A stretch of DNA of 41,758 bases from contig JAKSDO010000201.1 of the NCBI GenBank assembly GCA_022360055.1, forward strand, positions 1-41,758, written 5' to 3'. Below are positions 39,662 through 41,758 of the stretch, piece by piece. The position numbers and the translations under genes are program-made. Every line of letters begins with the position of its first letter. Position 1 is the first letter of the stretch. The notes beneath the pieces were generated by a model, which was not told the origin of the DNA, made no database searches, and saw only the letters and a program-made list of their open reading frames with translations. This DNA is from Cytophagales bacterium (GTDB lineage Bacteria > Bacteroidota > Bacteroidia > Cytophagales > Cyclobacteriaceae).

Positions 39662-40858
39662 CTAATTTTCGGTTTCATTGTTTTCCAAAAGTATTATATT
39701 AATTTCAGGATCATCAGCCCAGCGGGATTCTATTAATTTACCGAAGTTTATCTTCCCGATTATATATTGGTTTTCCAGGGCCTTATATTCTTCAAGAATG
39801 GAATTAAAAAGTTTTTTATCAATTGAAGTAGAATTATTAAATCTTAAGTAAATACTCAGTTCGATATTGCTAGATATGTTCAGGTCGTTAGCTTGTTGGA
39901 TTTTTTTGTACTCATACTTATAGTTGTACGTGAGCGCCGAAATATCCGAAAGGACCGCCGAACCTGTAGGATATCCTCCTGCTCCTTTTCCAATGAAGAA
40001 CTGGTGTTCGGAAAATGCACCTTCGACGATAACCGCATTAAATTCTCTTTCAACCTTATAAAGCTCACTGTTTTCACTTACAAATTGAGGGATTACGAAA
40101 GCGGCCACCTTATCATCTATTTTGCGGCTCTTGGCCACCAGCTTTATTTTAAAACCGCGTTCGCGTGCTATTTTTATGTCAAAATCAGAGATTTTATGCA
40201 TTCCGATATTCGTTATGTCGGATGGGTCCACAAATAGTCCAAAGGCATGTGTGAGTATGATGCAGAGTTTATATTTGGCATCAAATCCTTCGATATCCAG
40301 CGAAGGATCGGTTTCGGCATATCCCAGGTTTTGTGCTTCTGCCAATGCCTCCGGAATGGATTTTTGTTCGGAGAAAACTTTGGTGAGAATATAATTTGTG
40401 GATCCATTGAATATCCCTTCTACGGCGCTTAGCAAATCGTTGTCGTAATACTCTTCAAGGTTTCGGATGATGGGGATGCTGGCACAGCATGCGCCTTCAT
40501 ACAGCAATGGAACATTATAGTCATTTTGCATTTCGTATAATTCAATCATATGATCTGCCACCATTTTCTTATTGGCAGTAACAACGGCTTTTCCTTTTTG
40601 CATGGCAGTCTTTACGATTTCAAAAGCTGCTTCGGGATCATCAATGAGTTCCAGAACGACATCGACATCCGGATTTTCAAGGATATCCTCTTTTTCGAAT
40701 GTGAAGTACTTTGCCGGCAGCGAACGCTTTTTATTTTTATCCTTTACACAAATTTTTAAGATTTCAGCTTTTATTCCTCTTGTTTCTTCCAATACGCGAT
40801 ACAGGCCCTGACCGACAATACCAAAGCCAAAAATTCCAAGTTTTAAATGTCTATGCAT
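39662..40858 (-). CDS. hom: Homoserine dehydrogenase
   Basis: This 398-residue enzyme reduces aspartate semialdehyde to homoserine for methionine and threonine. Motifs seen are the NAD(P) loop GIFGFGIVGQGLYRVL near 8-23, NGSTNYILTKV near 151-161 and YAETDPSLDIEGFDAKYKL near 181-199, with catalytic aspartate and lysine. No aspartate kinase is fused, and the C-terminal 80 residues are not an obvious ACT domain. It is controlled by a SAM-I riboswitch and terminator directly upstream, so it should serve mainly methionine synthesis. No partner met gene is in the window. Confidence 0.94.
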   Translation of the reverse strand: MHRHLKLGIFGFGIVGQGLYRVLEETRGIKAEILKICVKDKNKKRSLPAKYFTFEKEDILENPDVDVVLELIDDPEAAFEIVKTAMQKGKAVVTANKKMVADHMIELYEMQNDYNVPLLYEGACCASIPIIRNLEEYYDNDLLSAVEGIFNGSTNYILTKVFSEQKSIPEALAEAQNLGYAETDPSLDIEGFDAKYKLCIILTHAFGLFVDPSDITNIGMHKISDFDIKIARERGFKIKLVAKSRKIDDKVAAFVIPQFVSENSELYKVEREFNAVIVEGAFSEHQFFIGKGAGGYPTGSAVLSDISALTYNYKYEYKKIQQANDLNISSNIELSIYLRFNNSTSIDKKLFNSILEEYKALENQYIIGKINFGKLIESRWADDPEINIILLENNETEN

Positions 40859-40869
40859 GTTATATAATC

Positions 40870-40900
40870 AAAAAAAAATCTCTTCTTAGTCAGAAGAGAT
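40870..40900 (-). terminator. Intrinsic terminator of SAM-I riboswitch
   Basis: On the minus strand a 9-bp stem ATCTCTTCT/AGAAGAGAT (40878-40900, 5-nt loop) is followed by a run of U (40870-40877). It lies between the riboswitch and the hom start. Part of the 5' arm and loop (TTCTGACT) can instead pair with AGTCGGAA just after the riboswitch P1 stem, giving an antiterminator. Confidence 0.85.
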
Positions 40901-40916
40901 TTGAAATGTTTTTTCC

Positions 40917-41020
40917 GACTTATTTTCCCCGATTGGGTAGGAGTTAGCACCACAATGCAAATCACATTAGGTTGCCAAGGTTTCTCAGGGCCCAGTCCCT
41001 CCACCTTTCTCAATAAGACA
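40917..41020 (-). ncRNA. SAM-I (S-box) riboswitch
   Basis: On the minus strand the hallmark order is clear: P1 5' strand CTTATT, then GAGAAAGGTGGAGGGACTGG, CCCTGAGAAACCTTGGCAACC, GGTGCTAACTCC (40940-40951), and P1 3' strand AATAAG. This is the S-box consensus. With SAM bound, P1 forms and sequesters bases the antiterminator needs, so the downstream terminator folds and hom is off; without SAM the gene is on. The aptamer match is strong and the switching logic is read from the alternative pairings. Confidence 0.93.
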
Positions 41021-41039
41021 AGACGTTAAGAACGAACTG

Positions 41040-41070
41040 CAAAGAAAGGCAGTTAGAATAACTATTGCAA
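41040..41070 (-). promoter_or_regulatory. Promoter for riboswitch-hom transcript
   Basis: Minus-strand TTTCTTTG (41040-41047) differs by one base from TAnnTTTG, with TTG (41068-41070) 20 bp upstream. Transcription from near 41033 would include the whole riboswitch. Confidence 0.5.
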
Positions 41071-41118
41071 TAAAATGATTAATACTTCTGCAGTTAAGCT
41101 AAATTCCTATTGTGTCGA

Positions 41119-41150
41119 TTGCCAAGTGATATAATTTTTAATTACTTTTG
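41119..41150 (+). promoter_or_regulatory. Promoter of the broken tRNA-Arg gene
   Basis: TTG (41119-41121), then 21 bp, then TACTTTTG (41143-41150): a full match to the Bacteroidota pattern. It lies 14 bp before the tRNA 5' end and now reads towards the integrase gene. Confidence 0.65.
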
Positions 41151-41164
41151 CAGACCAAAAATAT

Positions 41165-41204
41165 GGCCTCGTAGTTCAATGGATAGAATAGGAGTTTCCT
41201 AAAC
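41165..41204 (+). tRNA. tRNA-Arg(CCU), 5' half only
   Basis: The acceptor 5' strand GGCCTCG (41165-41171), the D arm (GTTC...GAAT, 41174-41189), the anticodon stem 5' strand GGAGT and the loop TTCCTAA with anticodon CCT (41198-41200) are all correct for a bacterial tRNA-Arg(CCU). After AAAC at 41201-41204 the expected 3' stem strand (ACTCC) is lost. No T arm or CGAGGCC acceptor strand occurs in the remaining window. The break falls in the anticodon arm, a common crossover site of tyrosine integrases, and an integrase gene follows. Confidence 0.85.
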
Positions 41205-41224
41205 GTTCGTTTTATCTATCCATT
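41178..41224. repeat. Inverted repeat spanning the integration junction
   Basis: AATGGATAGA in the tRNA D arm (41178-41187) is repeated exactly in inverse as TCTATCCATT (41215-41224) just inside the element. Between them, on the junction, lies AAACGTTCGTTT (41201-41212), a palindrome with 5-bp arms. Together these may be recombinase binding sites. Confidence 0.6.
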
Positions 41225-41314
41225 TAAAGACTTATCTCCAAAAACCCTCTTAAACGCTAAATTCGGCTATTCCTTTGGAGCGATTGTTGAGATAAATTCA
41301 ATATTCGTGAATTC

Positions 41315-41336
41315 TGTTCACTAATTGTTCACTAAT
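41315..41336 (+). repeat. Two tandem 11-bp repeats before the integrase
   Basis: TGTTCACTAAT occurs twice head to tail (41315-41325 and 41326-41336), one helical turn apart, 16 bp before the integrase ATG and overlapping its likely promoter region (GACCTTTG, 41341-41348). This fits an arm-type integrase site or an operator. Confidence 0.6.
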
Positions 41337-41352
41337 TTTTGACCTTTGCATT

Positions 41353-41758
41353 ATGAACGTAAGCATCAATTTTGAATGTCGACCTGGATACGTTTCGAAA
41401 AACGGAACAATACCTCTTACGCTAAGGGTCACCTTAAATCGTAAGAACAACTATTTGAATCTGGGTAGAAAAATTAGTGTCGATCAATATGACCCTAAGC
41501 TCAAACGGATCAAGCCTGGCACTAAGGGTTATACCCAAATCAACTCATTCATCAGAAGACAGGAAGTAAAGGTCGATAACATCATCGATGAACTGGAGAG
41601 AACTGATCAGGCCATCACGTTCAAAAAGATCAAGGATGTTTATAGAGGTATTACCGGTAAAATTCAAACCAATGATTTTTATGAGTATGTCGAAGGTGAA
41701 CTTGAAAGAGAAAAGGAAGAGACTCAGATCAAAGAATCTACACTCAAGGGTTACAGAA
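41353..41758 (+). CDS. Tyrosine recombinase/integrase, N-terminal part
   Basis: The first 135 codons are in the window and the gene continues beyond it. The start holds an arm-DNA-binding domain of the Bacteroidota type (SINFECRP, then IPLTLRVTLNRKNNYLNLGRK near 20-40, and ISVDQYDPKLKRIKPG). The beginning of the SAM-like core-binding domain follows (TNDFYEYVEGELEREKEE and STLKGYR near the edge). The catalytic R-H-R-Y residues would lie past the window. Together with the tRNA break it is almost certainly the enzyme that placed this element. The tRNA promoter upstream may also feed it. Confidence 0.85.
   Translation, partial: MNVSINFECRPGYVSKNGTIPLTLRVTLNRKNNYLNLGRKISVDQYDPKLKRIKPGTKGYTQINSFIRRQEVKVDNIIDELERTDQAITFKKIKDVYRGITGKIQTNDFYEYVEGELEREKEETQIKESTLKGYR

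Follow-up and report, generated by a model that had tools for sequence, protein, structure and literature searches.

A tRNA-Arg(CCU) gene cut by a tyrosine integrase element in a Cytophagales bacterium, and related islands that carry a complete spare tRNA

The stretch of DNA analysed here, called the window, is the whole of contig C112 (41,758 bases) of a 300-contig Cytophagales assembly, and it very probably ends in the left junction of an element that has destroyed a tRNA-Arg(CCU) gene on integration and carries a complete spare of the same tRNA. Such an element would use a tyrosine integrase to recombine a short core (9-12 bp in the relatives) in the anticodon loop of the gene. Since the element ends are unlike a tRNA beyond this core, integration would leave a 5' half on one side and a 3' half on the other, neither of them a tRNA. 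The supply of tRNA-Arg(CCU) would then be kept up, while the element stays integrated, by a complete gene located near its other end and beside an excisionase-like gene, as is seen in two related islands. The contig stops within the integrase gene, which places the far end of the element outside the window, so that relatives are needed to supply it.

The cut tRNA gene and its integrase

The half tRNA consists of 40 nt, cut after TTTCCTAAAC, and is identical at all 40 positions to the intact tRNA-Arg(CCU) of G003, a genome of the same genus; the next-best site on either strand of the window matches at 23 of 40. The initial annotation had read these letters as a tRNA-Arg(CCU) cut in its anticodon arm with the 5' half and the promoter side retained and facing an integrase, and it was right on each of these points. 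The half lies on the same strand as the integrase, which starts 148 nt downstream and whose 135 residues, the arm domain only, match Arm-DNA-bind_5 (E 3.3e-13), and a promoter-like box, TACTTTTG, still stands in front of it. Its further statement that the tRNA match stops after position 41204 and no T arm follows also holds across the window: the best ungapped match to the tRNA 3' half is 26/42, ARAGORN finds no tRNA, and Rfam at gathering thresholds returns the SAM riboswitch alone and no tRNA. The one junction that the window holds, the left one, is not called a tRNA by ARAGORN.

Coordinates of the features discussed, in the window and in the two related islands with readable far ends
Feature	Position	Strand	Remarks
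Homoserine dehydrogenase gene (hom)	39662..40858	-	NCBIfam NF004976
Terminator-like hairpin with T run	40876-40902	-	after the SAM riboswitch, ahead of hom
SAM riboswitch	40917..41019	-	Rfam RF00162, 77.7 bits; upstream of hom; chromosomal neighbour of the tRNA
Promoter-like box TACTTTTG of the tRNA gene	41143..41150	+	TAnnTTTG match; starts 22 bp before the tRNA
5' half of tRNA-Arg(CCU)	41165..41204	+	acceptor 5' strand, D arm, anticodon stem 5' strand and loop; chromosomal side of the junction
Probable common core TTTCCTAAAC	41195..41204	+	anticodon loop TTCCTAA plus neighbours; deduced for the window from the G033 and G471 junction blocks
Two tandem 11-bp repeats GTTCACTAATT	41316..41337	+	probable arm-type integrase sites; 112 and 123 bp from the end of the half
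Tyrosine integrase gene, first 135 codons	41353..41758	+	Arm-DNA-bind_5; cut by the contig end; ORF 41353-41757 open
G471 island, 44.8 kb	half C9:108119-108158; integrase 108328; complete tRNA 152643-152717; 3' half 152931-152972
G033 island, 82 kb	half C10:208291-208252; complete tRNA 126459-126387; core from 126261; 3' half to 126205

Relatives of the integrase are few in the genomes searched. Among 146 relatives, and leaving the window integrase itself aside, a single match exceeds 50% identity, namely the full 456-aa integrase of G033 (55%). With the latter as query, 395 genomes of the class gave matches in G159 (55%), G471 (47%), and G210 (39%); the class and phylum searches scored no more than four candidates in each genome, so that members of this clade can have been missed. 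A search of the phylum with alignment A2 at E <= 1e-90 gave no match in 395 genomes, a sample with no known matching genome, and the same alignment recovered one of 38 genomes in the family of G471 and one of seven in that of G159, each being the genome already known. The G033 integrase has a Phage_integrase domain, the catalytic region is aligned in G159 and G471, and the three full-length integrases have a Cys4 tail in common, which that of G210 lacks. A virus or plasmid source of the integrase was rejected on the low identities in the corresponding searches. Single-protein queries found no relative in viral contigs, an alignment query found 28 loci there at 23-36% identity, the best 20 of 63 matches in phage records are all below 30%, and the best 20 of 89 in plasmid records reach at most 27.3%.

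The arrangement itself recurs in all four clade members, that is, the window, G033, G159, and G471, whose integrases are 47-55% identical to that of G033: the same tRNA-Arg(CCU) half, cut after TTTCCTAAAC, stands directly before the integrase gene and on its strand, with a gap of 148-169 nt. The paired repeats keep a constant spacing of 11 bp and lie 112 and 123 bp from the end of the half in the window and in G033, 113 and 124 bp in G471, and 111 and 122 bp in G159, even though the repeated sequence is GTTCACTAAT in the first two genomes and TCTCACAAAT in the other two. Nine integrase matches at or below 39% identity (G025, G074, G094, G100, G063, G014, G064, G088, and G210) have no such half in a search for the CCTAAAC pattern. 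In G210 (L139, C64), the start of the 39%-identical integrase faces a complete tRNA-Leu(UAG) at its 5' end, and this may be another mode of integration within the wider family.

The orphaned tRNA promoter could possibly read through the half into the integrase gene, given that both lie on the same strand and that the gap between them holds no terminator-like site in the three of the four left ends scanned; both sites found by the terminator scan of the window lie to the left of the tRNA. The TAnnTTTG motif, a promoter element of Bacteroidota, occurs within 80 bp before the half in the window and in G471 and before the complete tRNA in G033. No such box was found within the same distance before the G033 half or the G471 complete tRNA, and a sigma-70 scan around the half in the window returned nothing.

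Far ends of the related islands

The far end had been named as the place that should hold the answer, and in G471 and G033 it does, with both a complete tRNA and a 3' half. Both islands show one order: a complete tRNA-Arg(CCU) comes first, then the repeat pair that also stands at the left end, followed by the core and finally the displaced 3' half. The repeats precede the core by 104 and 93 bp in G471, where it reads TTCCTAAAC, and by 101 and 90 bp in G033, where it reads GTTTCCTAAACT. The block common to the left and right junctions is GTTTCCTAAACT in G033 (12 bp) and TTCCTAAAC in G471 (9 bp), and the true core lies 126 bp and 215 bp, respectively, beyond the complete tRNA, so that a finder which looks for one fragment and a regenerated tRNA would probably set the far end in the wrong place. 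By BLAST at E <= 10, no other complete tRNA-Arg(CCU) was found in either genome, a result that bears on whether integrated cells would need the spare to survive. By analogy, the far end of the window's own element would be expected to show a complete tRNA-Arg(CCU), GTTCACTAAT pairs some 100 bp ahead of a TTCCTAAAC core, and a 3' half that ends in CGAGGCTA; that this element carries a spare is inferred from the two relatives.

The idea that the element might use a promoter and 5' half of its own to rebuild the tRNA at the far end was thus correct as to a complete tRNA at that end and mistaken as to its nature, the complete tRNA being an independent gene with the displaced 3' half beyond it and nothing rebuilt. 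The evidence comes from the anticodon stem in G471. The 5' half forms five of five pairs with the displaced 3' half and three of five with the complete tRNA, which forms five of five with itself; the two halves are therefore parts of a single gene, distinct from that of the complete tRNA. When the G471 flanks are rejoined, ARAGORN calls a tRNA-Arg(cct), and it calls neither of the two junctions alone. A C5-A68 acceptor mismatch is present both in the complete tRNA and in the rejoined site of G471, and the displaced 5' half also has C5. The halves of G033 alone could not have decided the matter, because there the displaced 3' half and the complete tRNA share the 3' strand of the anticodon stem. 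Read from both of their junctions, the islands of G471 and G033 destroy the target tRNA, do not rebuild it, and carry a spare.

No tRNA is regenerated at any of the five junctions tested (the left one of the window and both of G033 and of G471), which agrees with the earlier remark that the usual rebuilding rule is broken here and sets these elements apart from classical islands, where the target is regenerated at one junction. What is found instead matches tRNA-dependent integration: a tyrosine integrase at a host tRNA gene, a core within the 8-17 bp range without rebuilding (12 bp in G033 and 9 bp in G471, the window offering its left side only), and a complete cognate tRNA inside the element in G033 and G471. 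In G159 the contig begins inside a similar tRNA, of which a large part is present, 5.7 kb from the half and on the opposite strand; this tRNA is a fragment at the contig start, and no 3' half is visible. In G471 and G033 a gene for an excisionase-like protein of 91-126 aa adjoins the spare, and G159 has one on the contig of its tRNA fragment. The G033 and G159 proteins are 49% and 44% identical to the G471 copy, and matches of this protein to PHROG 575 are weak. In the excised circle, the spare would lie upstream of the integrase gene and on its strand for G033 and G471, but not for G159.

In G033 the halves have a 15-nt insert in the T arm and an anticodon stem with three of five pairs, and ARAGORN returns no tRNA for the two when rejoined. 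This apparent decay fits relaxed selection on the halves while the spare works. The complete tRNA of G471 has an anticodon stem, GTTGT/ACAAT, that occurs in none of 30 related tRNAs, and this unusual stem might protect it from the integrase.

Alternatively, the haplotype represented by the window could simply have lost tRNA-Arg(CCU), its element carrying no spare or a dead one and AGG being read by tRNA-Arg(UCU). A tRNA-Arg(UCU) gene is indeed present in the assembly, and the window's element lacks an assembled far end, but a complete spare is present in both relatives whose far ends can be read, and a large part of one stands at the G159 contig start, so this reading is given little probability. 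Because the window's genome has tRNA-Arg(UCU), cells may nevertheless survive without tRNA-Arg(CCU); AGG might be decoded by the former as well, and dependence on a carried spare could accordingly be partial.

Two further observations concern the contents of the islands. Behind the first integrase of G033 lies a second, partial copy (L132 8212-8559, minus strand) with 89% DNA identity over 399 bp, from which the G033 island may be composite. The cargo of the G471 island includes two large DUF6603 proteins of 1327 and 1136 aa (L140 13608-17591 and L141 14312-17722), between which an FG-GAP/PKD protein with a secretion tail is encoded.

The chromosomal site and its uninterrupted copy

The hom gene adjoins tRNA-Arg(CCU) in five of the six other genomes of the genus (G001, G002, G003, G004, and G006), which indicates that the half tRNA of the window stands at its ancestral place. 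In the sixth, G005, which is 74% complete, neither gene was found. The DNA 3' of the tRNA varies among these genomes, the contig of G002 ending at the tRNA, and in G003 and G006 the intact gene is followed, about 168 bp on, by a 394-aa integrase. That of G006 is distant from the clade of the window, with 22% identity to the G033 integrase. In G006, a sister species (C204; tRNA at L118 1571-1643), one 17-nt match to the tRNA 3' end (E 0.004) lies about 19.2 kb away; judged from this match, G006 probably carries a classical rebuilding island of about 19.2 kb at the same gene. For G003, the 7.7 kb available yielded no fragment of the tRNA 3' end. Thus, tRNA-Arg(CCU) is a site used by different elements. 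Fic-domain genes adjoin the tRNA or an element end in three genomes (L003 9229-10404, minus strand; L142 9156-10196, plus strand; L132 8966-10597, plus strand).

A search for a second tRNA-Arg(CCU) in the genome, which the initial annotation had proposed as a check, did turn up an intact gene, at the end of contig C130 of the same assembly, although the evidence points to a mixed population and not to the far end. Positions 41001..41204 (plus strand) of the window, 204 bp, are common to the end of C130, with mismatches at 41141 and 41190, after which C130 runs into the intact tRNA. Identity is exact over 41001-41140, so that C130 stops 140 bases before the first mismatch; as 140 is k-1 for k=141, the overlap looks like a branch of the assembly graph. 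The C130 gene most likely comes from other cells of a mixed population, in which the site is uninterrupted; the assembly would then combine cells with and without the element. At position 26, the C130 tRNA has C and the half in the window has A; of 30 related tRNAs, 28 have A and two have G (G000:C130:190709-190794 against window 41119-41204).

C130 was also considered as the far end of the window's element and rejected, because its tRNA continues from the window's own upstream DNA. It would hold that position in a quite different design, an element whose attP brings a 5' half and promoter, so that the far end joins the element's 5' half to the chromosomal 3' half. Islands that replace the 5' half do exist, 159 of the 3919 islands in the Islander database being described as leaving a 5' fragment (PMC4383910), and an intact tRNA at a contig end behind 204 common upstream bases with two mismatches is what such an element could leave. 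However, the stretch common to the window and C130 would then need to contain part of the hom riboswitch, and no second hom was found, the only match being one of 28% in an 819-aa frame. Moreover, no repeat pair of the GTTCACTAAT type follows the C130 tRNA in the 50.9 kb of the contig that were read, unlike the element-borne tRNA of G033, and the far ends of G471 and G033 both place arm repeats and a distinct 3' half behind the complete tRNA. The three of five pairs between the G471 5' half and the 3' strand of the complete tRNA point the same way, and a 5'-half-replacing element is considered highly unlikely.

The possibility that the junction at 41204 is an assembly join, which the initial annotation had named among the findings that would undo its reading, is extremely improbable. 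The region is probably an assembly fork, as suggested by the 140-bp identity and by a MAG contig, taken to be that of G003, which is named k141. Yet such a fork concerns the uninterrupted branch and not the junction, and three further genomes, which belong to three families, have the junction at this very base and with matching repeat spacing. The value k=141 itself gains no support from other ends: among 52 contig ends (four of which read as masked or identical blocks of 300 bases, C3 being all N), the 140-bp overlap is seen once, between C130 and the window, and the remaining shared stretches measure 21-48 bases.

Relation to known systems and consequences for the host

Judged by sequence, the elements described here are new members, in Bacteroidota, of the tRNA-dependent integration strategy. 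As described for actinobacteriophages (Guerrero-Bustamante & Hatfull, mBio 2024, PMC10865867), tRNA-dependent lysogeny involves a short core, no rebuilding of the target, and a cognate tRNA on the phage, which in mycobacteriophages has been shown experimentally to be needed; the Lactobacillus prophage Lj965 is mentioned there as a possible further case. The elements resemble these phages in their tyrosine integrase, in a core within the 8-17 bp range inside a host tRNA gene that is not rebuilt, and in putative arm-type site pairs flanking the core. They differ in their Bacteroidota hosts, in their target, tRNA-Arg(CCU), in an integrase of the Arm-DNA-bind_5 clade with a Cys4 tail (three full-length members), and in the placement of the spare beside the attachment site (two complete cases), and they may be phages, phage remnants, or non-phage islands.

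Phage-related sequences of Sinorhizobium meliloti are described as replacing an inactivated tRNA gene by an isoacceptor tRNA gene on the element (PMC11476347); the likeness, by that description, is the substitute tRNA, whereas the hosts are Alphaproteobacteria and the tRNAs are others. The phiLM21-like prophages of S. meliloti, according to a later paper (PMC12429752), show no tRNA-dependent lysogeny. With the islands in Islander, as outlined in PMC4383910, the elements share a tyrosine integrase, a crossover in the anticodon loop in many cases, and a displaced tRNA fragment. However, those islands regenerate their target and leave one fragment, in contrast to the two fragments and independent tRNA found here. 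Riemerella islands near an Arg-tRNA are reported with 53-bp and 19-bp repeats, unlike the present elements, and no report of this layout in Bacteroidota was found among the listed titles and abstract openings of the open-licence literature searched.

The elements would thus extend tRNA-swapping integration from actinobacterial phages, and phage-related sequences of Alphaproteobacteria, to large islands of Bacteroidota with a different clade of integrase. They make clear test cases, because the spare can be compared directly with the two halves. A broader proposal, put forward tentatively and with chances somewhat short of even, is that the islands make their host depend on them by destroying tRNA-Arg(CCU) and supplying its only working copy, that decayed halves lock the island in, and that the orphaned promoter may set integrase expression. 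If this is true, decay of the halves as in G033 would mean that precise excision no longer restores a working tRNA, and the island would be locked in as an essential locus. The G033 case allows a test of whether the decay of its target can make an island essential.

The G033 island may be of phage origin, as far as can be judged from a PHROGs search with 20 proteins (nine from G471, nine from G033, and two from G159). No match to a capsid, portal, or terminase family was found among these 20. The G033 proteins gave two strong matches to families of unknown function (phrog_3964 and phrog_3757) together with endolysin-like matches, a CHAP protein of the same island gave one weak match to a baseplate/tail-lysozyme family, and Cox-like matches were also present among the proteins searched.
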